NCBI RefSeq assembly: GCF_907163125.1
Contig: NZ_OU015319.1
Coordinates: forward strand, 682,001-746,000
Source: Cloacibacterium caeni
Lineage (GTDB): Bacteria; Bacteroidota; Bacteroidia; Flavobacteriales; Weeksellaceae
Reading direction: 5' to 3'
DNA length: 64,000 nt
The translations under genes were made by a program, and so were the position numbers. Below, piece by piece: positions 17,373-31,418 of the stretch (its first letter is position 1; every line of letters starts with the position of its first letter). Below the pieces are notes generated by a model. That model saw only the letters and a program-made list of their open reading frames with translations, was not told the DNA's origin and ran no database searches.

Positions 17373-18701
17373 TTAGATTAGCCAACCTTCAAACGAGCTA
17401 CCATTTTCGGTTTTTCTGTAAGTAAGATATCCGTTGTGTGCTTCCATAATACTTTTGGCAAGGGTAAGCCCAATTCCAGAACCGTTTTGTCGAGTTGTGA
17501 AAAAAGGTAAGAAAATCTTATTGGCAATTTTTTCGTCAATTCCGCCACCGTTGTCTTCTACTTTTATTAAGGTTCTATTGTTAAAATCCTGTAATTCAAT
17601 GCTTATTTTCTTTTGAGTATGAAGATTTTCTAGCGCAAAAATAGAATTGGTAATTAGGTTTACCAGCACACGTTCTATCATTTTTTCGTCTGCTTTGATA
17701 TGGAAATCTTTTAAATTTAAAACAATTTCGATGTTCTTGTTTTTAAATTCGGTATTGAAAATTTTCAAAACATTTTCTACACAATTTTTAAGATTAAAAT
17801 GTGTTTTTTTCGGTTTTGGAAGCTCTGCTACTTGCCTATAACTGTCTATAAAATGCAATAACTGTTGAGATTTTGAATTGATGATTTTCAGACTGTCTTT
17901 TATGTCATCTTGGTCTTCTTTCGTTAATTCTTCTTGCTCTGTAATGTATTCCAGATTGTGAACCAAGCTGTTTACCGGCGTTAAAGTGTTCAATAATTCG
18001 TGCGAAATTACCTTCATCAGATTATTCCACGCTAATTTTTCTTTTTTATCAATAATTTTCTGGATAGATTCTAAAGAAATCACACAAAAATCGTTGTGTT
18101 GTGTGGTAATTCTGGACGTTCGTATCGAATAAGATTGCTTGCTGCTTTCTTGTATGGAAACATCTATAAAATCTTGCGAATCTTGGTAAGATGTCTTCTC
18201 AATTAAGTTATAAAATTCTGGAATTTTACTTTCATAAAAACTCCAATTGTTGTATTTCGGGATTTTCAGAATGTTCATAAAACTGGGATTACAATAGAAA
18301 ACCTGCCAGTTTTTTTCTTCTTTGTTTTTACTCAGAATAATGAGTCCTATTTCTAATTTATTGAGAATGGTGTCGTATAAATTCTTGTAAGAATAGAGCT
18401 GGTTGTGCTCTTCTTTGCTTTGATAATAAAGTTTTACGGAAGCATTTTTAAGGTCATCAAATTGTTCTTTTTTAGGGAAAAGTGAAAAATCTTTTTGCTG
18501 AATAGAAGTGATTATTTTCTCTGTTTCTTTAATTTTTGCCGAGATGAGAACATAACAATATCCCATCAAAACACAAGAAAACGACGCAAAAAGAAAAGTA
18601 CTGAAAAATAGTTTTTCAATCCAAAAATGATAGGCAATAATCCCGAATACAATGCCCAAAATGCTAAAAAATAACCACTGAAGAAAATAATATTTTTTCA
18701 T
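17373..18701 (-). CDS. Sensor histidine kinase
   Basis: A 442-residue membrane sensor that should phosphorylate the regulator encoded just upstream on the same strand. Two membrane helices at residues about 8-30 and 33-53 have almost no periplasmic loop, so the signal is probably sensed in or near the membrane. A PAS-like region follows (about 100-215), then the HisKA box with His234 (VISHELLNTLTP), and the ATPase domain with N box (NLITNSIFAL), G1 (EDNGGGID) and G2 (GSGIGLTLAK). This layout matches NtrB/NtrY-like kinases. The 23-bp gap to the regulator gene supports an operon. Confidence 0.92.
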   Translation of the reverse strand: MKKYYFLQWLFFSILGIVFGIIAYHFWIEKLFFSTFLFASFSCVLMGYCYVLISAKIKETEKIITSIQQKDFSLFPKKEQFDDLKNASVKLYYQSKEEHNQLYSYKNLYDTILNKLEIGLIILSKNKEEKNWQVFYCNPSFMNILKIPKYNNWSFYESKIPEFYNLIEKTSYQDSQDFIDVSIQESSKQSYSIRTSRITTQHNDFCVISLESIQKIIDKKEKLAWNNLMKVISHELLNTLTPVNSLVHNLEYITEQEELTKEDQDDIKDSLKIINSKSQQLLHFIDSYRQVAELPKPKKTHFNLKNCVENVLKIFNTEFKNKNIEIVLNLKDFHIKADEKMIERVLVNLITNSIFALENLHTQKKISIELQDFNNRTLIKVEDNGGGIDEKIANKIFLPFFTTRQNGSGIGLTLAKSIMEAHNGYLTYRKTENGSSFEGWLI

Positions 18702-18724: not shown

Positions 18725-20059
18725 TTATATCCCAAATTTCTCCATTCTTCTGTATAAAGATGCTCTTGTTAAACCTAATGCTTCAGCTGCCAAAGTAATA
18801 TTTCCTTTGTGTTTTTTCAGCGCATTTTTAATCATTTTTTCTTCCATTTCTTCTAAATTTAAAGAAGTAATTTGTTCTTCTGAAGCAGTATGAGAGAGAG
18901 AAAGTTTAATGTTTTCGTTTTCAGACAAAATAATTTCTCGTTCTACAGAATGCTCTAATTCTCTAATATTTCCTGGGAAATGATAATTTTGCAATTCTTC
19001 CAAGTTTGTAATTTTAAGATTGCTTTTCCCATATTTTTTTTCATATTTTTTGATGAAAAATTCGGCTAAAGAAGCAATATCTTCTTTTCTTTCTCGCAAA
19101 GGAGGCAATTCTACTTCTACAGTGTTGATTCGGAAATACAAATCTTCTCTGAACGTATTCTCCGAAATCATTTTTTTCAAATCAGCATTGGTTGCAAAAA
19201 TAAACCTCACATCTGGAAAGCGTTCTTTGGTTTCTCCAATTCTAGAAAGTTTTTTGGTCTGAATTAGAGTCAGTAATTTTTGTTGAAGTTGTGGTGTTAA
19301 ATTTCCAATTTCGTCTAAGAAAACGGTTCCTCCATCAGCATTTTCAATTTTTCCTGCTTTGTCTGTTTTAGCATCGGTAAAAGCTCCTTTTGCATAACCA
19401 AAAAGTTCAGCTTCGAACAAATTTTCCGAAATTGAACCCAAATCTATGTGTACAAAAGGTTCGTTTTTTCTTTTGGAGTTTTGATGGATATATTCTGCCA
19501 TTACATATTTTCCAGTTCCGTTTTCTCCCAAAAGCAAAAGATTGGCATCGGTAGCAGCCACTTTTTTGATGGTGTTGATGGCTTGTTGCATTTTAGGAGA
19601 TTGCGTTTGCAATTCATAATTTTCTGCATTTTCTTGAAGATTTTCCCATTGCGAAAGTTTTTTATTCTTTCTGGAAATATCTACCGCAAGATTTACAGAA
19701 GCATAGAGTTTTTCGTTGTTCCAAGGTTTTAGAATAAAATCGGTTGCGCCATTTTTTAGAGCTTCTACTGCCAATTCTACTTCGCCATAAGCGGTCATCA
19801 GAATCACAGGAACGTCTTTATCAATTTCTTTAATTTCGGAAAGCCAATACAAACCTTCTTTTCCGTCTTCAAAACCTCTTCGGAAATTCATATCCAAAAG
19901 AATAACATCAATTTGATGATTTTGAATAGCCGTAATAATTTTATTAGGAGAATTAATGGTAACTACTTCTGTGAAGAATTTTTTGAGCCAAACTCTTGCC
20001 GAAAACAAAATGTCTTCGTCGTCATCTACAATTAAAATTCCTGCTTCTTTTTTTCGCAT
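18725..20059 (-). CDS. NtrC-family sigma-54-dependent response regulator
   Basis: A 444-residue activator with three domains. The receiver holds the acidic pocket (VDDDED) and phospho-acceptor Asp56 (ILLDMNF). The AAA+ domain has Walker A GENGTGK, Walker B GGTVFLDEIGN, arginine-finger region FREDLYFRIN, and the sigma-54 contact loop as GAFTDA rather than GAFTGA. The C-terminal Fis-type helix-turn-helix reads LTLAAEALGLTRASLYRRM. By position it should act on the divergent ABC export operon that starts at 20517, where a sigma-54-like sequence is seen. It lies upstream of its partner kinase gene. Confidence 0.93.
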   Translation of the reverse strand: MRKKEAGILIVDDDEDILFSARVWLKKFFTEVVTINSPNKIITAIQNHQIDVILLDMNFRRGFEDGKEGLYWLSEIKEIDKDVPVILMTAYGEVELAVEALKNGATDFILKPWNNEKLYASVNLAVDISRKNKKLSQWENLQENAENYELQTQSPKMQQAINTIKKVAATDANLLLLGENGTGKYVMAEYIHQNSKRKNEPFVHIDLGSISENLFEAELFGYAKGAFTDAKTDKAGKIENADGGTVFLDEIGNLTPQLQQKLLTLIQTKKLSRIGETKERFPDVRFIFATNADLKKMISENTFREDLYFRINTVEVELPPLRERKEDIASLAEFFIKKYEKKYGKSNLKITNLEELQNYHFPGNIRELEHSVEREIILSENENIKLSLSHTASEEQITSLNLEEMEEKMIKNALKKHKGNITLAAEALGLTRASLYRRMEKFGI

Positions 20060-20088
20060 TTTATTGAATTTATTTCCGAATTTTTATA

Positions 20089-20379
20089 TTATTTTTTAGA
20101 ACATTGTTGGAAAAAAGATTTCAATTCTTCTTTTCTTGCAAGAGTCAAATTGTGCCATCTAATACCTTGTATAGCACCTTCTATTGCAAATAATTCATTC
20201 AAACATGCTCCACTATCAATGGTTTTTAATTTAATAAACGTATTTTCTGTTCCACAAGATTTAAGTTTTTCTGGTGTTTCAATTTCAATCTCTTTTAATC
20301 TTTCAGATAATACTTTTCCAATGTTTGGTAGTTGAGTTAATAATGAATTTCCCATAATTTGAAAATTTAAATTGTTCAT
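20089..20379 (-). CDS. TfoX/Sxy C-terminal domain-like protein
   Basis: A 96-residue protein with the helix-hairpin-helix pattern of the TfoX C-terminal domain: LPNIGKVLSERLKEIEIETPEK-like start, a conserved Cys-Leu (ACLNELFAIEGAIQG) and IRWHNLTLARKEELKSFF at the end. It lacks the TfoX N-terminal domain. In Proteobacteria Sxy/TfoX governs competence, but isolated C-terminal domains have no proven role. An ATG at 20355 is an alternative start. It lies 29 bp upstream of the regulator gene on the same strand and may be in its operon. Confidence 0.78.
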   Translation of the reverse strand: MNNLNFQIMGNSLLTQLPNIGKVLSERLKEIEIETPEKLKSCGTENTFIKLKTIDSGACLNELFAIEGAIQGIRWHNLTLARKEELKSFFQQCSKK

Positions 20380-20382
20380 TTT

Positions 20383-20399
20383 CGAACGAAAAGTGTTCG
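20383..20399. promoter_or_regulatory. Candidate NtrC-type upstream activator site
   Basis: CGAAC (20383-20387), seven bases, then GTTCG (20395-20399); extended arms TTCGAAC/TCCGAAC match at 6 of 7. It is about 75-90 bp upstream of the sigma-54-like promoter, a distance usual for enhancer-type activators. It could also serve the divergent TfoX-like gene. Confidence 0.35.
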
Positions 20400-20465
20400 G
20401 AATCGGACGGTTTTTATTTTGATTTGATTTGAATTTCTTCTCATTATCAGTGCTTTATAACTTTA

Positions 20466-20489
20466 TAAATTTGTGGCATTTAGCTTGTG
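20466..20489 (+). promoter_or_regulatory. Overlapping -7 element and sigma-54-like promoter of the ABC export operon
   Basis: TAAATTTG (20466-20473) fits the housekeeping TAnnTTTG. Directly after it, TGGCAT-TTAGC-TTGTG (20474-20489) fits the sigma-54 pattern TGGCAC-N5-TTGCW at TGGCA and TTG with the right spacing, but has T for C in the -12 GC. The nearby NtrC-type regulator makes the second reading plausible. Confidence 0.45.
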
Positions 20490-20516
20490 TAATATATTGT
20501 AAATCAATTCACTGTA

Positions 20517-21761
20517 ATGGATACGAAATTAGAAAAAAAACAATCTAAACTCAAAATTATTTTAATTATTTCCGCAAGTATTATTGCTGTAGTTCTTTTT
20601 GCTACTTATTTTTTGAAGCAGAAAAAAACGTATAATGTTCCGTCAGACGAAATTCAAATTTCAGAAGTAACGTACGGCAAATTTGAAGATATGTTGATGA
20701 TTACAGCTCAGTCCCAGTCTCTTCACTCTTCTTTGGTAAACGTTTTAGAAGGCGGAATGGTAAAAGAAATTTATGCAGAAGACGGACAAATGGTGCGCAA
20801 AGGCGAACCGCTTGCCAGAATTTATAATCCGAATACTGAATTCAATTTCATGAATCAGGAAACGGGAATTATGCAGCAAATTAGCCAAATGAGAAGTTCG
20901 CTTTTGGAACTTAAAAATCAGGAATTCAATCAAAATAAAGAATTATTGCAATCTCAGAACGATTACAATACGGCTTTGCAAACATATAATCTTCAAAAAA
21001 GATTATATGACGCCGAAATTGGAAGAAAAACAGAATTTGATTTGGCAAAACAAAATCTAGAATATCAGAAAAAACGAAAACAATTGACTGAACAAGGAAT
21101 TCAAAATGAAAATCGTTCTAGAAATCAGCAAATTGCAGATGTTAATAAATCTATCGGGCAAATGCAGAAAAGTTTGGATGTTCTGAGAAATAACAAAAAT
21201 AATTTCTTGATTTTGGCTCCGGAAACTGGCAGATTGTCTTCTTTCAATATTAATTTGGGCGAAAATCTTACTTCCGGACAAAGCATTGGAAAAATAGATT
21301 TGATGGACGGTTACAAATTAGTAGCAAAAATAGACGAATACTACATCAATAAACTTCAACCTGGGATTAAAGGAACTTTGGACAATACAGACCAATCGTA
21401 TAACGTAATCGTTACCAAAATTTTACCAGAAGTAAAAGATGGACAATTCTCTGCTGAACTTAATTTTGCGGACGAAAACAAACCTAAAGATTTAAGAATT
21501 GGGATGACTTTCGGAGTGAAATTGAAACTCTCTGCCGATACGCAAAGTATGATGATTCCGAAAGGAAATTTCTTTAAAGATTCTAACGGGAAATGGGTTT
21601 TTGTAGTAAAAGGAAATAAAGCCGAAAAACGAAACGTAACTTTTGGAAGAGAAAATGCATTGTATTATGAAGTGGTTTCGGGATTGAAAAACGGCGAAAA
21701 AGTAATCACTTCAGATTATACAGATTACAAAAATTATGAGATTTTAGAAATTAAAAAATAA
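20517..21761 (+). CDS. HlyD/MacA-family periplasmic adaptor
   Basis: Adaptor subunit of a tripartite ABC exporter, 414 residues. One N-terminal membrane anchor (about 12-31) is followed by a first lipoyl half (VKEIYAEDGQMVRKGEPLARI), a long coiled-coil hairpin rich in Gln, Asn and Lys (about 105-225), the second lipoyl half (ILAPETGRLSSFNINLGENL) and beta-barrel domains. It opens a same-strand series running to 31282 that includes an ATPase, two permeases and a TolC-type channel, all the parts of a MacAB-TolC-like machine. Its upstream DNA carries the likely regulated promoter. Confidence 0.9.
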   Translation: MDTKLEKKQSKLKIILIISASIIAVVLFATYFLKQKKTYNVPSDEIQISEVTYGKFEDMLMITAQSQSLHSSLVNVLEGGMVKEIYAEDGQMVRKGEPLARIYNPNTEFNFMNQETGIMQQISQMRSSLLELKNQEFNQNKELLQSQNDYNTALQTYNLQKRLYDAEIGRKTEFDLAKQNLEYQKKRKQLTEQGIQNENRSRNQQIADVNKSIGQMQKSLDVLRNNKNNFLILAPETGRLSSFNINLGENLTSGQSIGKIDLMDGYKLVAKIDEYYINKLQPGIKGTLDNTDQSYNVIVTKILPEVKDGQFSAELNFADENKPKDLRIGMTFGVKLKLSADTQSMMIPKGNFFKDSNGKWVFVVKGNKAEKRNVTFGRENALYYEVVSGLKNGEKVITSDYTDYKNYEILEIKK

Positions 21762-21767
21762 GTGAAA

Positions 21768-23171
21768 ATGGTATTGAAAAAGAAAATTTTAGGACTTTGT
21801 GTTTTTTTTGCTTCTGTTTTTGGTTTTTCACAAGAAAAATTAATTCCTAAAGTGGATGAAAGAGTAGAAGCGGTAAGTATCGTTTTTAGATTGGCAGGCG
21901 CAGAAGAATACAGCAGAAATGAAAATAAAAAATATGCAGAAGACATCAGAACTTATTTTGAATCTTTTAAAAATTCAGAAATTATAGAATTTATTAAAGA
22001 AAATAGAAACCAAAATGGTTTGGGATATGATGCCGTAATGTCTATGGCGACTCATATTTCTTTTGAAAAAAATAAATTCAAGTTGATAACAGAAAAAGAA
22101 AATACTTTAGACAAAAGATGGGCAAAAGTAGATATTAAGAAGTTTGTATCTCTGTTGAATGAATTCTATAAAAAAACAAATTTTCAGAATTTTTTTAACA
22201 ATCACGCTGAGGATTATGCTAAAGCAGAAAAAGAATATCAGAAAGTTGTTTTGAGTGATTTTAACCAAAATTGGTATCCTAAATTCTATGGAAAAACGCC
22301 TAATGAAGAGTATAAAATTATTTTAGGCTTTGGAAACGGTGGCGGAAACTATGGCATAAAAGTAAATCCTAAAAATGGCAAAACTATCGTAAATGCAATA
22401 GTTGGAGTTTGGGATTTTGATGAAAACGGAGAGGCAAAATTCGACAAAAATGAGTTTCAAACATTGTTAATTCACGAGTTTAATCATTCTTTCGTCAATT
22501 ATATTTTAGAGATGAAAGATTATCAGGCTCAACTGGAAAATTCTGCTGAAAAAATCTACAAATTGGTTGAAAAAGACATGAAATCTCAAGCTTACGGAAA
22601 CTGGGAAACCATGATTAACGAAAGTTTGGTAAGAGCTTCTGTCATTCGATATATGATAGATAATAATTATTCTCAAAAAGAAATTAATGAAGAAATTTTG
22701 ATACAAAGAGGTCGCAAATTTCTTTGGATTAAAGAATTGGTAGATTTGCTTGGAAACTACGAACAAAACAGACAAAAATATCCAACTTTAGAGAGCTTTT
22801 ATCCAGAAATTATAGCGTTTTACAAAAATTTAGAACCTAATTTGAAAACTTTAATTGACAAACAACCGAAAGTAGTTTCGGTATCGCCAGACATTTGGGA
22901 TAAAGAAGATGTAGATGCAAGTATTACAGAAATTACCGTCAATTTTAGTACAAAACTTTCTTCGGAAAGAATGAATGTGAAAATTGGTAAATTGGGAATG
23001 GAGCATTTTCCGTTGAAGCAAAGTTTAGGTTTTGAGAATGAAAATAAATCGATAAAATTTAAAGTAGAACTAAAACCAAATACAGAATATGAATTTGTTC
23101 TCGGAAACAGATTTAGAGACCTAGCAGGATTTCCACTTGAAGAAACCACAATAAAATTCAAAACAAAATAA
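21768..23171 (+). CDS. DUF4932-type metallopeptidase-like secreted protein
   Basis: A 467-residue exported protein with signal peptide ending GFSQ. The middle carries LIHEFNHSFVNYIL, an HExxH zinc-peptidase motif, with a possible third ligand Glu in NESLVRASVIRYM about 60 residues on. This arrangement resembles the DUF4932 family of Bacteroidota. The last 95 residues (PKVVSVSPDIWDKED onward) form a bacterial Ig-like (Big_5) domain. The ATG at 21768 is chosen over a GTG 6 bp upstream that touches the adaptor stop codon. It lies inside an exporter operon, where a peptidase-like gene is unusual; a role in processing exported peptides is only a guess. Confidence 0.8.
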   Translation: MVLKKKILGLCVFFASVFGFSQEKLIPKVDERVEAVSIVFRLAGAEEYSRNENKKYAEDIRTYFESFKNSEIIEFIKENRNQNGLGYDAVMSMATHISFEKNKFKLITEKENTLDKRWAKVDIKKFVSLLNEFYKKTNFQNFFNNHAEDYAKAEKEYQKVVLSDFNQNWYPKFYGKTPNEEYKIILGFGNGGGNYGIKVNPKNGKTIVNAIVGVWDFDENGEAKFDKNEFQTLLIHEFNHSFVNYILEMKDYQAQLENSAEKIYKLVEKDMKSQAYGNWETMINESLVRASVIRYMIDNNYSQKEINEEILIQRGRKFLWIKELVDLLGNYEQNRQKYPTLESFYPEIIAFYKNLEPNLKTLIDKQPKVVSVSPDIWDKEDVDASITEITVNFSTKLSSERMNVKIGKLGMEHFPLKQSLGFENENKSIKFKVELKPNTEYEFVLGNRFRDLAGFPLEETTIKFKTK

Positions 23172-23176
23172 AAATT

Positions 23177-23875
23177 ATGAAAAATATTTTAAAATTATTC
23201 ATCGGAGCGATGATGCTACAATCTTGCATCATTATAAGAACAGATAGAGATGGCGTTTACAGAAATTATGATAACTCAGAAAAAGTACAAGATTTTGCAG
23301 GAAAACCAATCGAAAGCAGAGATTTTGAGGTGAAAAAATTCTCAGAAATTAAAGCGAATTCTGCTATGAAAGTTTACATAAAAAAAGCACCTCAACAAAA
23401 AGTTGTGGTAAGTTCTAACGCAATTAATTACATCGTAGTTTCGTCTGAAAACGGAATTTTAAAAGTAGAATATAACAATCAAAATAATTCTATAAACAAT
23501 GTAAATGCAGAAGTTACGGTTTATACGCCAGATTTTGAGAGACTTTCGGCTTCTAGTGCCGGACAAATTTTTATTAATGATGATTTTCAATTGAATAAAC
23601 TAAAAATAAACCTCGACAGTGCAGGAAAAGTGACGGGAAATATTTTTGCAGAAAAATTATTTGTAAATATTTCTAGTGCAGCATTTTTAGAGTCTAAAGT
23701 TCAATCTAAAATCATTGAAATTGATGCGAGTTCTGCTTCTAAAGTTAATCTGAGCGGAAGTACGGAAGAAATTAAAATAAATGCTAATAGCGTTGCAAAA
23801 ATTAATCTTGAAAATTTGAAATACAAAAATATTCAGCAAGAAAGCAGTTCTTTAGCGAAAATTTATGTGAAATAA
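23177..23875 (+). CDS. DUF2807 (GIN domain) lipoprotein
   Basis: A 232-residue lipoprotein, with signal MKNILKLFIGAMMLQSC (cysteine at 17). The rest is a right-handed beta-helix-like array of short strands (AEVTVYTPDFERLSASSAG, IEIDASSASKVNLSGS), typical of the DUF2807 or GIN domain described as a putative adhesin head. It follows the DUF4932 gene by 5 bp, so the two are probably translated together. Function is not known for the family; surface or periplasmic location is likely. Confidence 0.85.
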   Translation: MKNILKLFIGAMMLQSCIIIRTDRDGVYRNYDNSEKVQDFAGKPIESRDFEVKKFSEIKANSAMKVYIKKAPQQKVVVSSNAINYIVVSSENGILKVEYNNQNNSINNVNAEVTVYTPDFERLSASSAGQIFINDDFQLNKLKINLDSAGKVTGNIFAEKLFVNISSAAFLESKVQSKIIEIDASSASKVNLSGSTEEIKINANSVAKINLENLKYKNIQQESSSLAKIYVK

Positions 23876-23913
23876 TTTAAAAGGGAAAAGTTAAAATTTA
23901 AAAATAAAATCGG

Positions 23914-24078
23914 GTTGCTCCGTAGGAGCAGTATCTGTGTAGAAATGGAATGATTAACGGTGCGCGCCGTAGGTGCGCTATCTCTAACTCCAAAATGTTA
24001 AAAAAGATTGAACTCCTACGGAGTTCTCTATCTGCAACTCGCATATTTTTTACACAGATTCCGCTCCTTCGGAGCTTT
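23914..24078. repeat. Composite repeat of four GC-rich hairpins
   Basis: The 304-bp gap between the DUF2807 and ATPase genes holds four hairpins in otherwise A/T-rich DNA: GCTCCGTAGGAGC (23917-23929), GCGCGCCGTAGGTGCGC (23962-23978), GAACTCCTACGGAGTTC (24010-24026) and GCTCCTTCGGAGC (24063-24075). Inner units 2 and 3 are each followed by (G/T)CTATCT-CAACTC-like text (TATCTCTAACTC, TATCTGCAACTC). The outer units are inverted copies that share ATCTGTGTA next to the hairpin. No gene is seen in the gap. Confidence 0.8.
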
Positions 24079-24179
24079 AAAATAATATAATTCAAAAACT
24101 ATTATTACTATTAATAACAATGATTATTGAACTTTTTATATAATATTAAAAAAAATCATCAACCAACAACTATAAAATT

Positions 24180-24902
24180 ATGATTACAACAAGCAATTTA
24201 TCAAAAATCTATAAAACAGAAGACGTACAAACTACAGCGCTTAACAAAGTGAGCCTCAATATAAAACCTGGAGAATTTGTAGCAATAATGGGACCTTCGG
24301 GCTGCGGAAAATCTACTTTGCTGAATATTCTCGGGCTTTTGGATGCGGCTTCAGAAGGTTCTTATCTTTTTGAAACTACAGAAACTGTAGGAACTTCTGA
24401 GAAGAAAAAATCTGACATCAGAAAGAAAAATATTGGGTTTATTTTTCAGAATTTTAATTTGATTGATGAACTAACAGTTTACGAAAACATAGAACTTCCA
24501 TTAATCTACAACGGTGTTTCTTCCTCAGAAAGAAAAAAACGTGTAGAAGAAATTATGGAGAAAATTAACATTGCACATCGTGCAAAACATTATCCACAGC
24601 AACTTTCAGGTGGTCAACAGCAACGTGCTGCTGTTGCCAGAGCTTTGGTAACGAGACCAAAATTGATTCTTGCCGACGAACCAACAGGAAATCTTGATAG
24701 TTCTAACGGAAACGAAGTAATGAATCTTTTGGCAGAACTTCACCGCGAAGGTTCTACCATCGTAATGGTAACACACTCTTCTTATGATGCTGGTTTTGCA
24801 TCCAGAATTGTGAATATGAAAGATGGCGAAATCTACAGTGAAGAACACGCAACCCAAAGAAAAGATGCTTTCGAAAAAGCTGATGCTAAGGATTTTGAAT
24901 AA
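24180..24902 (+). CDS. ABC transporter ATPase (MacB/LolD type)
   Basis: Cytosolic ATPase of 240 residues that powers the two permeases downstream. Walker A is GPSGCGKST, Q loop FIFQNFNLIDELTV, signature LSGGQQQRAAVARAL, Walker B LILADEPTGNLD and switch His in MVTHS. The NIELPL after the Q loop and TGNLDS after Walker B are typical of the LolD/MacB/FtsE group, which drive mechanotransmission rather than transport through the membrane. In Gram-negative MacB the ATPase is fused to the permease; here it is a separate gene. Confidence 0.95.
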   Translation: MITTSNLSKIYKTEDVQTTALNKVSLNIKPGEFVAIMGPSGCGKSTLLNILGLLDAASEGSYLFETTETVGTSEKKKSDIRKKNIGFIFQNFNLIDELTVYENIELPLIYNGVSSSERKKRVEEIMEKINIAHRAKHYPQQLSGGQQQRAAVARALVTRPKLILADEPTGNLDSSNGNEVMNLLAELHREGSTIVMVTHSSYDAGFASRIVNMKDGEIYSEEHATQRKDAFEKADAKDFE

Positions 24903-25006
24903 AAAGTAAGAATATGGAAGACGGAAGTCTGAAGTTGTATACTGCTTAAATTTTAATTTTTAATCATCCGACATCCAGCTTCGGACATCGGACAAAATGA
25001 ACGATT
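24903..25006. repeat. Degenerate repeat spacer before first permease
   Basis: The gap contains related words in both directions (GAAGACGGAAGTCTGAAG; CATCCGACATCC, GGACATCGGAC). It carries no gene. It is one of the degenerate-repeat junctions in the window. Confidence 0.45.
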
Positions 25007-27418
25007 ATGTTACAAAACTGGCTCAAAATAGCATTTATCAATTATAAAAAGAACTGGCTTTCTACGTTTATCAATTTATTTGGATTAACGGTAGGTTTAA
25101 CTGGTTTTATGCTCATTCTCATGCATTGGAATGACGAAGAATCTTACGAAAAATGGAATCCCAAAAAGGATAATATCTACTATTTTCAAACGTATAATAA
25201 AAAGGAAAATACTTATGGAGCTGCTATTTCTGTTCCGTTAGCAGAAAATGCAAAGAAAAGAATCTCAGAAGTTGAGGATTTTGTTTTAATGACGAATACA
25301 GGGAGTGCTTACAAGATGACGACTAAGTATAAATCTGTTTACCAAGAAAATGGTTTTGCTTTTTCGGAGAACTTTTTTAATTTTTTTCCTTTCAAACTAA
25401 TTTCTGGAAGTTATAAAAATGCTTTGAAAAATGATACTGATATTATTATTTCAAAACAAACAGCACTGAATCTTTTTGGCAAAACAGATGTGATAGGAGA
25501 AACCATCAAAATTAACACCACTAATTTTATTGTAACCGCAGTTTACGAATTACCAGAAGGAAATACCCAGATAAACCCAAATTTTGTTATAAAACCAGCC
25601 GACCAATTAAAAAATGATAAAGAACAATGGGGGAATTTCAATTATGGTTGTTTTTTTATGTTGAAAAAAGGTGCAGATCCTAGAAGTTTTGAGAAAAAAT
25701 TTCTAGATATTATTATGCTCAGAGCAAAGTTGCAATCTAAAGGTTCTGGCATTACACCTCAGCAATATATTGACATGTATGGTCCTACAGATTCTTTGCT
25801 TACGCCTTTAGATAAAATAAAATTGCATGCAAAATCTACTTGGTTTGGAATGCCAGATTTCAAAACGTTATTAATTCTGTTTACACTTTCAGTTTTAATT
25901 GTGATTTTATCTGCCATTAATTTCATAAATCTGAAAACCGCTCAATCTTCACAAAGAGCAAAAGAAGTGGGTGTAAGAAAAGCCATTGGAAGCAGTAAAA
26001 CTTCTTTAATTTTTCAATTTTTACTAGAAACATTTATCATTTGTATCATGTCGTATTTTCTTTCACTCGTTTTAACGGAAATTTTGTTGCCAAGTTTCAA
26101 CAAATTCTTTAACAAAGAAATTACAATGAACGATTGGCGAATTTACTTCTATTCTTTATTGATGGTTTTGTTAGTGACTTTAATTTCTGGGATTATTCCT
26201 GCAATTTATTTGTCAAATTTCAAAGCAATTGAAACTTTGAAAGGCAATTTTTCGAGAAGCAAACATGGGATTTGGCTTAGAAACGGAATTCTTTCTATTC
26301 AATTGGTTATTTCATCTTTTTTCATTATTGGTGGTTTAATTGTTCATAGCCAAGTGAAATATATGATGAATAAAGATTTGGGTTATGACGGCAAACAAGT
26401 TTATCAAATTAATTTTAATGAATACGGACAAAAACCTTGGCTAAAATATGAAAGATTAAAAGCGGAAATGGCAAAAATTTCTGGTGTTGAAAGCATTTCT
26501 TATTCCGAAGCGCCTCCAGGAACAAATAGTTTCAGTAGTTCTAATATGGATTATATGGATACAAGCATCCAAGCGCAACACGGTTCTATGGATTATGATT
26601 ATCCTCAGTTTATTGGAGCTAAGCTTCTAAAAGGACGTTGGCTAAATCCGAAATTGGCATCAGATACTATTAATACAGTTTTAGTAAACGAAGCTTTTGT
26701 GAGAAAATTTGGTTGGACAAACGACCAAGCTATCAAGAGAGAAATTAAACCAGGTTTTGATTATAAACCATATAAAATTGTAGGAATTGTAAAAGATTTC
26801 AACATCCGAAGTTTGAAAAGCGAAGTAGAACCTATAATTTTTTTCCACTACAGAGAAACAGAATGGAAACGTTATAATATGGATAATATTCAGGTTAAAA
26901 TAAAAGCAAATGATATTGACGGAACGATAAACAGACTTAAAGATTATTGGACAAGCAAAGTAGAACAAGGCTATCCTTTTAATGGTTATTTTATCAATAA
27001 ACAATTTGCAAAATCTTTTGAGAAATACCAAAAACAACAAACACTTTTTACGATTCTCAATGCCATGGTTTTAATGGTGGCATTGTTAGGATTATTTGCT
27101 TTGTCATCATTAATGATTGAACAAAAATTGAAAGACGTAGCCATCAGAAAAACCTTGGGAGCTTCGGAAAGTACATTGGTTTTTGGACTTACCAAACAAT
27201 TCTTGTGGATTTCAGCAATGGCAGTTTTCGTAAGCATTCCGATAAGTTTTTATCTAATGAACGAATGGCTGAAAGATTTCGCTTACCGAATAGATATGCC
27301 AGTTTTTCCATATATATTTAGTTTAGTGATTTTGCTTCTCTTAACTTTTGCAGTAGTAAGCATCAAAGCATATAGAGCTACAAAGGTAAACCTTGTGAAA
27401 TATTTGAAATATGAATAA
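25007..27418 (+). CDS. FtsX/MacB-family ABC permease, first copy
   Basis: An 803-residue permease with two FtsX units. An N-terminal membrane helix (about 20-40) is followed by a large periplasmic MacB core domain (40-280), three helices (285-400), a fourth helix and second periplasmic domain (430-670), and three final helices (about 680-795). EVGVRKAIGSSKTSLIFQFL and VAIRKTLGASESTLVFGL are the two coupling-helix motifs. Such 800-residue double FtsX proteins are common in Bacteroidota efflux operons and often act with a stand-alone ATPase such as the one just upstream. They export peptides or antimicrobials in studied cases. Confidence 0.92.
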   Translation: MLQNWLKIAFINYKKNWLSTFINLFGLTVGLTGFMLILMHWNDEESYEKWNPKKDNIYYFQTYNKKENTYGAAISVPLAENAKKRISEVEDFVLMTNTGSAYKMTTKYKSVYQENGFAFSENFFNFFPFKLISGSYKNALKNDTDIIISKQTALNLFGKTDVIGETIKINTTNFIVTAVYELPEGNTQINPNFVIKPADQLKNDKEQWGNFNYGCFFMLKKGADPRSFEKKFLDIIMLRAKLQSKGSGITPQQYIDMYGPTDSLLTPLDKIKLHAKSTWFGMPDFKTLLILFTLSVLIVILSAINFINLKTAQSSQRAKEVGVRKAIGSSKTSLIFQFLLETFIICIMSYFLSLVLTEILLPSFNKFFNKEITMNDWRIYFYSLLMVLLVTLISGIIPAIYLSNFKAIETLKGNFSRSKHGIWLRNGILSIQLVISSFFIIGGLIVHSQVKYMMNKDLGYDGKQVYQINFNEYGQKPWLKYERLKAEMAKISGVESISYSEAPPGTNSFSSSNMDYMDTSIQAQHGSMDYDYPQFIGAKLLKGRWLNPKLASDTINTVLVNEAFVRKFGWTNDQAIKREIKPGFDYKPYKIVGIVKDFNIRSLKSEVEPIIFFHYRETEWKRYNMDNIQVKIKANDIDGTINRLKDYWTSKVEQGYPFNGYFINKQFAKSFEKYQKQQTLFTILNAMVLMVALLGLFALSSLMIEQKLKDVAIRKTLGASESTLVFGLTKQFLWISAMAVFVSIPISFYLMNEWLKDFAYRIDMPVFPYIFSLVILLLLTFAVVSIKAYRATKVNLVKYLKYE

Positions 27419-27422
27419 ATTT

Positions 27423-27477
27423 TAGTGTTTACTATTTGGTTTTTAGCCAAATACAATACACTAGAAACAAAACACTA
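27423..27477. repeat. Nested inverted repeat between the two permeases
   Basis: TAGTGTTT (27423-27430) pairs with AAACACTA (27470-27477) and encloses ATTTGG/CCAAAT (27434-27439, 27447-27452). It lies in the 65-bp gap inside the operon, before the second permease ATG. Confidence 0.55.
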
Positions 27478-27483
27478 GAAATT

Positions 27484-29913
27484 ATGTTAAACAATTGGCT
27501 CAAAATAGCATTTGCTAACTATAAAAAAAACTGGCTTTCTACCATTATTAATGTTTTGGGATTAAGCTTAGGTTTATGCATTTTTCTAATGGCTTTTATC
27601 CATTGGCAAGACGAAAAATCTTATGAACAATGGATTCCTAATAAAGAAAATATTTATTTGGTAGAAAATTCCAATTCTGATTTCGGAAATATTGTGGTTT
27701 CTAGCTTTCCTGCATTGGCGGTATCAAAAGAAAAATTTAAAGAAATAGAGGATTTTGCCATTGCCAATTCTTGGGGAGCTTATAAAACAAGATTGATGGC
27801 AGGTGAAAAATCTGTTTATATTACATCTTGTAGAGCTAGTGAAACTTATTTTGATTTTTTTCCAATGGAAAAATTGGCAGGGAGTTTTAAAAATGCCATC
27901 AGTGATAATGGTAAAATAGCCATTTCTGAAGAAACCGCTAAGTCTCTATTTGGAAATGAATATAAAAATTGTATTGGGAAAACCGTGAAACTAGATGATA
28001 ATGAAAATAAATCTTTAATCATTACTGTAGTTTACAAAATACCAGAAAAGAATACCGTTTTTAAGCCAGGATTCATTATGAGACATCCTGGTTTGGATCA
28101 AAAAAAATTAGAATGGACCAATTATAGTTACATAGGTTATTTTAAATTAAAGTCAGGTACTGATGTTGCAGCTCTAGAGAAAAAACTCTCTGCTCAAATG
28201 TCTGAACAAGAAAAAATTGCTTCTGAAAAATGGGGGGAAAAATATGATGAGAAAAACAAAGCCAATGTTTTTTTAACACCAATTTCGGATATGAAATTAG
28301 AAGCTAAAAGCGAGGGTGTAGAAAAAGGTGACAAAAAATCGATTATGATTTTGCTTGGTCTTTCTGCTTTAATTTTGCTTTTATCAGGAATTAATTTGGT
28401 TAATTTAAAAACGGCGCAAGCTTCTCAACGCGCCAAAGAAGTGGGCGTAAGAAAAGCAATTGGAAGTTCTAAGTCTAAAATTATCGCTCAATTTTTATTA
28501 GAAAATTTAATTATTTGTCTTGTCGCTTACATTATTGCATTTGCTTCTATAGAACTATTGTTGCCATCTTATAACAAATTCTTAGGAAAAGAAATTTTAC
28601 TGAATGATTATCGAATTTTTATCTATTCCGGAGTTTTATTGTTGGTTTTTGCATTGATCTCAGGTGTTATTCCTGCGATGTATTTGTCTAATTTTAAACC
28701 AATTAATACTTTGAAAGGTAATTTTGCAAGAAGTAAAAGTGGCGTTTGGTTGAGAAATTCTATTTTGAGTTTACAATTGATTATTTCTTCGTTTTTCATT
28801 ATTTGTTCTTTAATTATTCATAGTCAGGTAAAATACATGATGAATAAAGATTTGGGTTTCAAAGGTGATCAGGTGATTCAAATTCAATTCAAAAAAACAG
28901 ATTGGCAAAATGATTATAATTCTAAAAAATACATAAGACTTAAAAACGAAGTTTCAAAAATAGCAGGTGTACAAGATATTACAAGTTCTGTATTTAGAAT
29001 AGGCTTAGGATTAATGAATTCTTCATCTGTTAAAAATGCAATAGATACTACAAAAACAATTAATAATGTAGGAGTTGGTGGTATAGATTATAATTATTTT
29101 AAATTCTACAAAATGAAATTTGTTTCGGGTAGAGATTTAGATTTACGTCTGGCTTCTGATACTATTTCTGGAGCTATTGCCAACGAAACATTCATTAAAC
29201 AAATGGGCTGGAACAAAGATAACGCGCTTGGCAAAGAAATTTATCCTGGTTGGGAAGACAAGAAAAAATACAAAATTATAGGCGTTCTCAAAGATTTTTA
29301 TGTGAATGGAGTTGATAAACCTGTAGAACCTATTCTTTTCTTTAATTATGATAGAAACTGGGCAAAAAACAATATGTCTAATCTGCAAATAAAACTTACT
29401 GGCGACGATATTGATGGGACTTTAGAAAGAATTAAACAATTTTGGCTCACCAAAGCAGAACCAGGTTATCCTTTTGATTATGAATTTGTGGATAAACAAT
29501 TTGCCAAAACTTTTGAGAAATTCCAAAAGCAACAAACACTTTTTACCATTTTAAATATAGTGGTTTTGTTGGTGGCATTGCTTGGTTTATTTGCCTTGTC
29601 TTCTCTTTTAATTGAACAAAAATTGAAAGATGTCGCCATCAAAAAAACTTTGGGAGCAGACGAAAGAACAATTGTTTGGGATTTAACCAAAAGATTTTTA
29701 ATTATCGCTTCAATTGCTGTAATTATCAGTATTCCATTTGGTTATTACGCCATGAACGAGTGGTTGAAAGATTTCGCTTACAGAATCGAAATGCCAATTT
29801 GGCCATACATTTTGAGTTTTGCAATGCTGTTGCTGTTAACATTTGCTGTGGTAAGCATCAAAGCATACAGAGCTACAAAAATAAACCTTGTAAATTACTT
29901 AAAATACGAATAA
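27484..29913 (+). CDS. FtsX/MacB-family ABC permease, second copy
   Basis: An 809-residue paralogue of the preceding permease with the same layout of two FtsX units. The two begin almost alike (LQNWLKIAFINYKKNWLST versus LNNWLKIAFANYKKNWLST) and share long blocks such as HSQVKYMMNKDLG and NEWLKDFAYRI, showing tandem duplication. Periplasmic domains differ most, so the two may form a heterodimer with asymmetric outer parts (inference). The ATG at 27484 is chosen because it aligns with the first copy; a TTG 48 bp upstream lies within the inverted-repeat spacer. Confidence 0.92.
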   Translation: MLNNWLKIAFANYKKNWLSTIINVLGLSLGLCIFLMAFIHWQDEKSYEQWIPNKENIYLVENSNSDFGNIVVSSFPALAVSKEKFKEIEDFAIANSWGAYKTRLMAGEKSVYITSCRASETYFDFFPMEKLAGSFKNAISDNGKIAISEETAKSLFGNEYKNCIGKTVKLDDNENKSLIITVVYKIPEKNTVFKPGFIMRHPGLDQKKLEWTNYSYIGYFKLKSGTDVAALEKKLSAQMSEQEKIASEKWGEKYDEKNKANVFLTPISDMKLEAKSEGVEKGDKKSIMILLGLSALILLLSGINLVNLKTAQASQRAKEVGVRKAIGSSKSKIIAQFLLENLIICLVAYIIAFASIELLLPSYNKFLGKEILLNDYRIFIYSGVLLLVFALISGVIPAMYLSNFKPINTLKGNFARSKSGVWLRNSILSLQLIISSFFIICSLIIHSQVKYMMNKDLGFKGDQVIQIQFKKTDWQNDYNSKKYIRLKNEVSKIAGVQDITSSVFRIGLGLMNSSSVKNAIDTTKTINNVGVGGIDYNYFKFYKMKFVSGRDLDLRLASDTISGAIANETFIKQMGWNKDNALGKEIYPGWEDKKKYKIIGVLKDFYVNGVDKPVEPILFFNYDRNWAKNNMSNLQIKLTGDDIDGTLERIKQFWLTKAEPGYPFDYEFVDKQFAKTFEKFQKQQTLFTILNIVVLLVALLGLFALSSLLIEQKLKDVAIKKTLGADERTIVWDLTKRFLIIASIAVIISIPFGYYAMNEWLKDFAYRIEMPIWPYILSFAMLLLLTFAVVSIKAYRATKINLVNYLKYE

Positions 29914-29989
29914 ACTTAGTTGATGGTTGTCGGTTGAAAGTTGATGGAATTTTTACTGACAACCAACAACTATCAACAATCAACTGACA
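29914..29989. repeat. Inverted degenerate TTGATGGTTG repeat
   Basis: GTTGATGGTTGTCGGTTG on the left is answered by CAACCAACAAC and CAACAATCAAC on the right, so the spacer can fold on itself over most of its length. The right arm ends at the ATG of the TolC gene. Confidence 0.5.
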
Positions 29990-31282
29990 ATGAAAAAACT
30001 CTTCTTCATATTGCTGATTAATTTTTTGCCGGCTCAGCAAAAATGGAACTTGCAACAATGTCTAGATTTTGCCATGAAAAACAGTCCGGAAGTGCAACAA
30101 AGCATTATTAATGTAAGCAAAAACCAAAGACAAATCAATACTGCTAAAGGAAATTTGCTTCCTTCGGCAAGTATCGGCATCAATCATAATTACAGTTTTG
30201 GAAACGGCATCAATACGCAGAACAATCAAAGAGAAGCGATTAATACGCAAACGGACAATTTCTATGCGTTGGCAAGTACAGAATTATTCAACTGGAAAAA
30301 TTATCTTAATATTTCTCTTTCTAAAATTAATAAAGAAAGTTCAGAATACCGATTGAAAACCGTTCAAAACGATGTTAAACTCAGCATTGTTGGTTTGTTT
30401 TTTCAATATATGAAAGATAAATCTTGGTTTGAAGTATTAGAACCACAAATTTCTGGTATGAAAGAACAAATTGCCAGAACCGAAAAAGAAGTAGAAATTG
30501 GAAATCGTGCAAAAAGTGATGTTTACGACATCAAAGCCAACTTTGGAACCATACAAGAACAATGGATTTCGGCGCAAAACCAAATGAATATTTCTAAAAT
30601 TAATCTTTTGGCAGCACTCAATATTAATAAAGACAGCATCGATTTTGTTTCGGACGAAAATTCAGAAATAACGCCAAATTTTATCAATTCAAAAGAAATG
30701 ATTGACAATTTGGTGCAAAAAAATCCAATTTTTATTGAAAATCAAAAAGAATTGGAAGCTGCAAAAATGAAGATTAAAGCTGCAAAATCAGATTATTTGC
30801 CTACCATTACGGCACAATATCAATGGTCTTCTTTTTTCAACAAAAATTTGAAAGAAGATATAACCACTAATTTTTCAACCCAGTTTAATCAGAACAAAAA
30901 TTCTCAGGTTTCTATAGGACTGAATGTTCCTCTGTTTCAAAAATTTCAGGTAAAAAATGCTGTTGAGACCGCAAAATTAGACCAACAATACACTGTTTTT
31001 GAAAATCAAAGAAAACTGAATGAATTGTACAAAACACTCAATATAATTGCAGAACAATATGACAATGCCATTGAAAAAAATAAAATTTTACAACAAAATT
31101 TCGAAAATCAAAAATTATCTTTCGAGCGTTCTGAAGAAAAATATAAAGAAGGATTGATGGATGCTTATACATTTTTTGTGGTAAGAAACAGTTGGCTTCA
31201 GGCAAATTTTAACCTCAATGCCAGCAAGTTCGATGTGATGCAACAACAAGCGTTGATTAACGTTTTCGAAAATAATAATTAA
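29990..31282 (+). CDS. TolC-family outer membrane channel
   Basis: A 430-residue outer-membrane efflux channel with a signal peptide ending LPAQQ. The start WNLQQCLDFAMKNSPEVQQ is the conserved first helix of the family, and the later ASTELFNWKNYLNIS and IGLNVPLFQKFQVKNAVE match the two strand-helix repeats. It closes the ABC export operon and supplies its exit duct, so adaptor, ATPase, permeases and channel are all present here. A strong terminator follows. Confidence 0.92.
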   Translation: MKKLFFILLINFLPAQQKWNLQQCLDFAMKNSPEVQQSIINVSKNQRQINTAKGNLLPSASIGINHNYSFGNGINTQNNQREAINTQTDNFYALASTELFNWKNYLNISLSKINKESSEYRLKTVQNDVKLSIVGLFFQYMKDKSWFEVLEPQISGMKEQIARTEKEVEIGNRAKSDVYDIKANFGTIQEQWISAQNQMNISKINLLAALNINKDSIDFVSDENSEITPNFINSKEMIDNLVQKNPIFIENQKELEAAKMKIKAAKSDYLPTITAQYQWSSFFNKNLKEDITTNFSTQFNQNKNSQVSIGLNVPLFQKFQVKNAVETAKLDQQYTVFENQRKLNELYKTLNIIAEQYDNAIEKNKILQQNFENQKLSFERSEEKYKEGLMDAYTFFVVRNSWLQANFNLNASKFDVMQQQALINVFENNN

Positions 31283-31322
31283 AAGAATACTATTTTTTTT
31301 CACAATAACTAAATTTAATTTT

Positions 31323-31351
31323 ACTGCTCTAATTTTTAGAGCAGTTTTTTA
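31323..31351 (+). terminator. Terminator of the ABC export operon
   Basis: ACTGCTCTAA (31323-31332) and TTAGAGCAGT (31336-31345) form a perfect 10-bp stem with a TTT loop and a T tract. Confidence 0.9.
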
Positions 31352-31418
31352 TTTTGTACATTTATGTTTCAAAAGTTTATAAAAAATTGCAAATTTGCAC
31401 CCCATTTAGATTTTGAAA

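Follow-up and report, generated by a model that had tools for sequence, protein, structure and literature searches.

A variable slot rich in predicted proteases within a MacAB-like exporter operon of Cloacibacterium caeni and its relatives

We analysed a 64,000-nucleotide stretch of the Cloacibacterium caeni genome (RefSeq contig NZ_OU015319.1, positions 682,001 to 746,000; the whole stretch is called the window below), in which a MacAB-like exporter operon (20517-31282, all genes on the + strand) carries genes for a DUF4932 protein and a DUF2807 lipoprotein between those for its adaptor and its ATPase. The pair is one among many fillings of a slot rich in predicted proteases: in the family, 56 of 117 loci have between one and four additional genes in the adaptor-ATPase interval, which is nearly empty in the remaining 61. 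A first-pass annotation, made from the letters alone, had described such an operon with genes for a lipoprotein and a peptidase-like protein inside it, and Pfam and NCBIfam place every part in the order, on the strand and at the positions that it gave. Chance, which the same annotation had named as what would undo its reading, does not explain the two genes, as the window's two nearest relatives (L033 and L035) have DUF4932 and DUF2807 genes in the same place and the slot is so often filled. We tentatively propose that the operon is an inducible envelope-defence module that couples efflux of peptides or proteins with interchangeable extracytoplasmic proteases.

Judged by curated models, the exporter is of the MacAB-like tripartite kind, with two separate ADOP-like permeases. 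The periplasmic adaptor (20517-21761, +; HlyD_3, PF13437, 50.6 bits; RND_mfp, TIGR01730, 120.4 bits against a cut-off of 94.9) is followed by the two slot genes. The first encodes the DUF4932 protein (21762-23171, +; PF16286, 233.1 bits against 28.7), which has a hydrophobic N-terminus, an HExxH...E domain and a C-terminal immunoglobulin (Ig)/CopC-like domain; the second encodes the DUF2807 (toastrack) lipoprotein of type b (23177-23875, +; PF10988, 83.5 bits against 24.2; lipobox LQSC). Then come the ATP-binding cassette (ABC) ATPase, LolD/MacB/DarD-like by Pfam and NCBIfam (24180-24902, +), two ADOP-like permeases (25007-27418 and 27484-29913, both +), each with MacB_PCD and FtsX in two stretches and above the cut-offs of PF12704 and PF02687, and a TolC-type outer-membrane channel (29990-31282, +; PF02321, 139.8 bits). 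Genes for a histidine kinase (17373-18701, -; HATPase_c by Pfam) and an NtrC-type response regulator (18725-20059, -; receiver, sigma-54 activator AAA+ and Fis helix-turn-helix domains by Pfam and NCBIfam) are divergent from the exporter operon. The genome, 2.98 Mb in one contig, is close to Cloacibacterium rupense, and the window adaptor shares 92% identity with that of C. rupense (L067) and likewise with that of the metagenome-assembled UBA1937 (L066).

How often is the slot filled? A search with 13 adaptor queries (E <= 1e-60, up to five candidates scored per genome) against 320 genomes of the window's family, which we take to be the Weeksellaceae, found the adaptor in 115 genomes, at no fewer than 116 places. 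From a species collection we took the best 80 named loci; 71 had an adaptor of at least 70% identity and were counted with the family, and the other nine are Flavobacterium loci with adaptor identities of 46-48%. Merging both sources and removing seven duplicates left 118 distinct family loci, with the divergent regulator in 117 and the kinase in 114. One of them, L069 of Elizabethkingia miricola, was set aside because its ATPase was not found in the DNA examined, so that 117 loci are readable; in L069, from 12310 onward, the DUF4932 gene is followed by at least 7 kb of mostly opposite-strand genes (one of 994 amino acids, and others). Among six other genomes of the same genus, three (G002, G005, G006) are without this adaptor, and the slot of a fourth (G003) holds a barrel gene and a DUF2807 gene.

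The slot stands apart from the intervals downstream of it. Counting + strand open reading frames (ORFs) of at least 95 amino acids, we found one in 7 of 114 ATPase-permease, 1 of 71 permease-permease and 7 of 98 permease-channel intervals, or 15/283 when pooled, against 56/117 for the slot (Fisher p = 4e-22, a value that overstates independence because the loci are related). Three of these 15 ORFs (L124, L163, L179) resemble fragments of the operon's own genes. Three slots were scored empty by judgement: L124, whose short ORF ending in TTKW falls under the 95-amino-acid limit, and L170 and L179, in which the ATPase ORF is split; the raw tally of slots with an ORF is 58/117. Gaps of 300 bases or more occur in 7/114, 1/71 and 9/98 of the three downstream intervals and in 41/116 of the regulator-adaptor gaps.

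The filled slots draw on a small repertoire. The commonest contents are DUF2807 alone (10 loci), the small protein s124 alone (8), DUF2807 with DUF4932 of subfamily B (7), DUF4932 of subfamily A with DUF2807, which is the window's type (6), DUF4932-A alone (6), and DUF2807 with DUF4932-B and an aspartyl-protease-like protein (4); the other 15 loci show eleven rarer combinations that include S41 peptidases, an outer-membrane barrel and the protein s120, among others. At least one predicted peptidase is present in 34 of the 56 filled slots (DUF4932 in 30, aspartyl-like in 9, S41 in 3), the kinds being assigned by Pfam on representatives as DUF4932, Asp_protease_2 and Peptidase_S41. L033 and L035, which belong to these 15 rarer loci, have a four-gene slot, DUF4932-A, DUF2807, DUF4932-B, DUF2807. 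Multi-gene slots keep the order DUF4932-A, DUF2807, DUF4932-B, aspartyl without any reversal found, apart from a second DUF2807 (type b, with lipobox) that follows DUF4932-B in two loci. Conservation of the window's gene order across Bacteroidota, which the first-pass annotation had put forward as a check, did not hold: the window's content recurs in 6/117 loci, slot genes were found only in loci of its own family, and the gap is near-empty in the nine Flavobacterium orthologues (L137-L145) and in two more distant loci (L064, L065). At least two permeases are present in 46/55 filled and 15/59 empty loci (Fisher p = 2.6e-10); independent pairs on the tree give no support for a link between filling and permease number (7 pairs, median p 0.5), so the difference may reflect shared ancestry.

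Slot content has turned over repeatedly. On the adaptor tree of the 117 loci the slot state changes at least 37 times, and filled versus empty alone needs 14 changes; this is a quick tree with many weak inner forks, which may inflate the counts. One hundred shuffles gave a mean of 54.7 changes and a minimum of 51, so slot content is partly inherited. Closely related operons differ in content. In Chryseobacterium sp. FH1 (L107) and Epilithonimonas lactis (L113) the adaptors are identical over their last 380 residues; the former has S41 and DUF2807 in the slot and the latter a 124-amino-acid protein. At the DNA level the two loci agree at 94.6% across the adaptor gene to 12 bases beyond its stop codon and again, at 92.7%, from 23 bases ahead of the ATPase start; the slot borders are clean. 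Where S41, barrel or small-protein genes occupy the first position, they look like replacements.

DUF4932 seems to have entered the slot more than once. Its slot subfamilies A (17 copies) and B (16 copies) share about 22% identity, and in a tree of 43 proteins (8 A, 8 B and 27 standalone) each forms one clade; a common origin of the two was rejected under a joint constraint (approximately unbiased test, p-AU 6.5e-63; some standalone sequences are long-branched). By this phylogeny, A and B are two separate recruitments to the slot. Among 119 relatives, 22 have DUF4932, with 28 matches, 12 in the slot and 16 elsewhere; across the phylum it is present in 30 of 392 genomes drawn. We looked around 36 non-slot loci (the 16 from relatives and 20 of 36 places from the phylum sample, 11 having been left out and 5 already known) and found an adaptor, permease or channel match at none in the surrounding DNA examined, some contigs being short; at a few there are matches to generic ABC ATPases, or weak ones to kinases or regulators.

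Might the adaptor-ATPase junction simply tolerate insertions, with slot genes as functionally unlinked passengers? The 16 of 28 DUF4932 matches that lie apart from the exporter suit such a hotspot, as does the regulator-adaptor gap, which lies outside the operon and gains genes too (an ORF of at least 95 amino acids in 29/116; relatives of a YhcG/DUF1016-like gene in 22/118). Passengers would not be expected to come from few families and nearly all to bear signal-like N-termini, or to leave the three downstream intervals mostly closed; moreover, a gene of the slot's barrel family elsewhere in one genome bears the operon's own operator (see below). We hold this explanation to be very unlikely.

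The DUF4932 protein is the most frequent candidate enzyme of the slot. In 39 diverse DUF4932 proteins only H238, E239, H242 and E287 are invariant, and HExxH is kept in 33/33 slot copies. An HExxH motif with a downstream glutamate ligand is one mark of gluzincin-type metallopeptidases and is intact here, E287 being the probable ligand. The predicted structure has a predicted local distance difference test (pLDDT) score of 89 for the full protein and 95.2 for the catalytic domain alone. When the catalytic domain was re-aligned to solved structures, the best partner was an M61 peptidase (7xyo; Z 6.9, 175 residues, root-mean-square deviation 4.1), followed by an HExxH alpha-ketoglutarate oxygenase of the ChlB type (8s5f; Z 6.8, 182 residues, root-mean-square deviation 5.0). 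A search with the full protein matched chiefly the C-terminal domain, the last 100 residues being Ig-like with CopC as nearest relative (Z about 10); aminopeptidase N structures (Z 8.0 and 7.4) gave weak coverage of the catalytic part. The DUF4932 profile found no convincing sequence relative in the PDB (best E 0.38). According to PMC12636437, some HExxH proteins act as hydroxylases and not just as cutting enzymes. Because the protein is apparently exported, we consider peptidase activity the likelier and oxygenase activity the less likely; the slot DUF4932 proteins are counted here as predicted peptidases.

In a crude test, signal-like N-termini are nearly universal in slot proteins: DUF4932 30/33, DUF2807 36/37, aspartyl-like 9/9, s124 8/8, S41 3/3, barrel 2/2 and s120 2/2, with s127 at 0/1. 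The controls gave 0/117 for the ATPases and 1/118 for the regulators. The first-pass annotation had taken both extra families to be without functions. This stands for DUF4932, to which Pfam assigns none and which one paper in the literature searched mentions; for DUF2807 it goes too far, as there is some published work, and a passage of PMC11237479 assigns it to the Toastrack domain found in systems that respond to envelope stress. In the slots of L091 and L135, DUF2807 type a and the aspartyl-like protein have very similar signal sequences (an MQ start, then ITMIIGLF / ITVIIGLF), which look as if copied within the slot.

The operator upstream of the adaptor is tightly conserved. A tandem palindromic operator (20373-20408, +), two TGTTC-N6-GAACA-like sites spaced 21 bp, lies at -144/-123 from the adaptor start, and a pattern match to a sigma-54-like -24/-12 element, TGGCATTTAGCTTGTG (20474-20489, +), at -43. 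At least two such palindromes (<=2 mismatches) are found in 111/118 loci, and the first two are exactly 21 bp apart in 102/118, against a shuffled expectation of 0.6. The pattern TGG[CT][AC]-N6-T[TC]G[TC] lies no more than 80 bases from the adaptor start in 90/118 loci and occurs in 0/406 control regions upstream of ATPase, permease and channel ORFs; the window genome has a sigma-54 gene. The single likely regulated promoter of the first-pass annotation is thus borne out as a conserved candidate. The operator is probably bound by the divergent NtrC-type regulator, and the slot genes would be cotranscribed with the pump.

In the window genome the operon's operator (G000:C1:702373-702408) is the sole match without mismatch; one other, with two mismatches, is a poor palindrome inside an ORF of 504 amino acids. 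In six genomes, places with at most one mismatch number eight: six at the operon and two in an Elizabethkingia (G065), whose adaptor is the same as the one of E. miricola L069 in its final 380 residues. We used only such places because a reversed control gave 0-5 matches per strand and genome at up to three mismatches. Both extra sites lie upstream of OMP_b-brl_3 barrel genes, and one of these barrels belongs to the slot barrel family (1011 bits). Since a slot-family gene elsewhere thus carries the same operator, the slot family is tied to the regulon apart from its position; because both extra sites lie between divergent genes, the other neighbour could be the target.

These barrel genes bear on a second explanation, envelope quality control, in which the operon responds to misfolded or mislocalised outer-membrane proteins and lipoproteins, with no peptide from outside. 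Its proteases would degrade these as the Cpx and sigma-E ones do, and a MacB/LolCDE-like pump would clear fragments or lipids. Proteases of the S41 and HExxH kinds are characteristic of proteolysis in the envelope, and the two operator-bearing OMP_b-brl_3 genes fit the same picture. LolCDE is a MacB relative according to the part of PMC5985334 that deals with it. One would, however, expect quality control to keep its proteases, yet slot content varies among closely related operons, and a TolC-type channel would be superfluous. We consider this explanation rather unlikely.

The window kinase has two hydrophobic stretches within residues 4-57 (tallied as five overlapping segments in a crude hydropathy plot), close together at the N-terminus, and no large periplasmic domain is apparent. 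The same tally, which sometimes splits or merges neighbouring segments, gave for 114 kinases two segments in 57, three in 37, one in 10, four in 8, five in 1 and none in 1. On this crude measure, the kinase seems to have almost no extracytoplasmic part.

We compared the operon with several known systems. MacAB-TolC-type exporters (type VII ABC transporters, including PvdRT-OpmQ) likewise have an adaptor, a MacB_PCD/FtsX permease, an ATPase and a TolC-type channel in one operon. Here, unlike there, the ATPase and permeases are separate genes, there are two permeases, and the operon has its own two-component system, a sigma-54-like element and an internal protease/DUF2807 slot. Against the 966-bit cut-off of the E. 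coli MacB equivalog PRK10535 the unfused ATPase scores 225.7 bits and the permeases 44.2 and 53.5. As to the first-pass suggestion of an undescribed system, we found no description of the operon or its slot in the literature searched; MacAB-like exporters as a kind are already described.

The darobactin exporter DarBCD is close in models. DarC and DarD are the best NCBIfam matches of adaptor and ATPase, and for the permeases ADOP ranks first and DarB second. We do not file the operon as a darobactin exporter because all scores are far under the equivalog cut-offs (DarC 168.1/450, DarD 279.2/375, DarB 141/700 and 129.1/700). These matches, always among the top two, favour a third explanation, in which proteins or peptides that Sec delivers to the periplasm are exported by the pump and the slot encodes either the cargo (small proteins, DUF2807) or proteases that trim it. 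There are precedents: passages of PMC8277102 report export of a Sec-delivered toxin by MacAB-TolC and of pyoverdine by PvdRT-OpmQ, and one in PMC5410138 reports DUF4932 and S41 genes together in LanB-type clusters. Some slots contain only a small exported protein (s124, 8 loci). Others contain small ORFs with a YLSFA motif and a C-terminal TTKW (L119 10748-11083, L129 10717-11079, L126 10652-11035, and L124), in one case with DUF4932-B; these are possible cargo or precursor proteins. Unlike DarBCD, the operon shows no peptide-modification enzyme in a scan of 20 window proteins encoded there or nearby, small precursor ORFs not having been searched systematically. About half of the operons would also have nothing in the slot to export or trim, and DUF2807 type b, with its lipobox, would remain membrane-bound. 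Maturation and export of a cargo seems unlikely to us.

Bce-type modules of Firmicutes use OmpR-type regulators. They share with the operon a kinase, here apparently, without a large sensor domain beside a MacB-superfamily transporter, and an operator almost confined to the operon. In Bce systems the transporter does the sensing, according to PMC5985334 and PMC3023708, and the former describes these modules without an adaptor. The operon may function like a Bce module; it is not one, because its regulator class and its adaptor differ. Lia/PSP systems have DUF2807 in common with it, as part of the Toastrack domain (a passage of PMC11237479), and differ in that here there is an exporter link and none of the operon genes belongs to the PspA, PspC or LiaF family by Pfam. 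One can go further and imagine that Gram-negative bacteria have their own version of Bce/Lia modules, in which pump and sensor form a constant chassis, lineages exchange metallo-, serine- and aspartyl-type extracytoplasmic proteases in the one slot, these and their toastrack partners are matched to differing hostile peptides or proteins, and the regulon extends to outer-membrane barrels. This is a possibility, on the doubtful side.

Our preferred explanation, the envelope-defence module, builds on the gene content, the position, repertoire and turnover of the slot, the conserved operator with its promoter-like element and the intact HExxH-plus-glutamate site. The membrane-embedded kinase, perhaps sensing through the transporter, would activate the NtrC-type regulator, which would bind the tandem operator and turn on a sigma-54-type promoter for the entire operon. 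Adaptor, ATPase, MacB/FtsX permeases and TolC channel might then expel periplasmic peptides or proteins, the slot proteases (DUF4932 metallo-type, S41, aspartyl-like) might cut the same class of threat, and the DUF2807 beta-helix proteins might bind or tether at the membrane. Pump and proteases would act jointly, their targets being peptides or proteins of one class, in the periplasm or bound to the surface. If the threat varies, lineages would be expected to swap their protease. In the sections of PMC9629497 and PMC8277102 concerned with them, MacAB pumps take periplasmic substrates and are linked to antimicrobial-peptide resistance; passages from this set and from PMC5985334 treat extracellular proteases as a recognised second route to peptide resistance.

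Several observations weigh against this explanation. Since about half of the orthologous operons lack any slot gene, the operon can be retained without one, and 22 of the 56 filled slots are without a predicted peptidase. Slot genes keep a nearly constant order and slot states cluster on the tree, so some of the variation may stem from losses out of an ancestral array and not from swapping; the gain of genes on the regulator side, described above, is a further point. As to the enzymes, Foldseek found no solved structure at E <= 0.001 for the DUF4932 catalytic domain, although the absence of a family from such a result does not exclude it, and the oxygenase HExxH domain scores on a par with the M61 peptidase (Z 6.8 and 6.9). 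Aspartyl proteases usually carry D-T/S-G; the aspartyl-like slot protein has D-L-G as its first motif in 9/9 copies, and D-T-G in five and D-N-G in four as its second. The sigma-54-like pattern is absent in 28/118 loci, including L176-L188, and was not found before the two distant barrel genes of G065. The likeness to Bce modules is limited by the NtrC-type regulator, the adaptor, the outer-membrane channel and the added proteases. Finally, we know of no substrate, peptide or phenotype for any member.

Three of the ten flanking genes scanned have no Pfam match, and those that do seem to have no connection with the operon (aldehyde dehydrogenase, aminotransferase, amidohydrolases, topoisomerase, endonuclease I, tRNA methyltransferase). 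A TfoX_C-domain gene (20089-20379, -) sits between the regulator and the operator region. In the regulator-side gap of other loci, a gene for a YhcG/DUF1016 PDDEXK nuclease-like protein is found directly upstream of the regulator, e.g., L033 13028-14113, whose relatives are those counted above, and L052 12875-13915. Exported-looking genes also occur in other intervals (L097 14197-15018, L119 11974-13107, L076 10657-12291, L185 5479-6297, L161 6334-8430), the kinds being Porph_ging, transglutaminase-like, beta-lactamase-like, DUF2807 and OMP barrel. Within the window operon, a non-coding insert of 304 bp (23876-24179) precedes the ATPase and contains a 29-nucleotide inverted repeat (arms 23917-23945 and 24047-24075). 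The corresponding gap in L033 is about 25 bp, and the genome holds one weak partial second copy. An Rfam scan of window positions 20000-31400 gave no match at the gathering score.

A fixed place next to a pump where unrelated protease classes take turns, controlled by a well-conserved operator, suggests for DUF4932 a function that experiments can test and gives DUF2807 a role; it would also illustrate a way in which efflux and proteolysis may be joined in Bacteroidota. The operator provides a handle on the system: finding the inducer should reveal the class of substrate.

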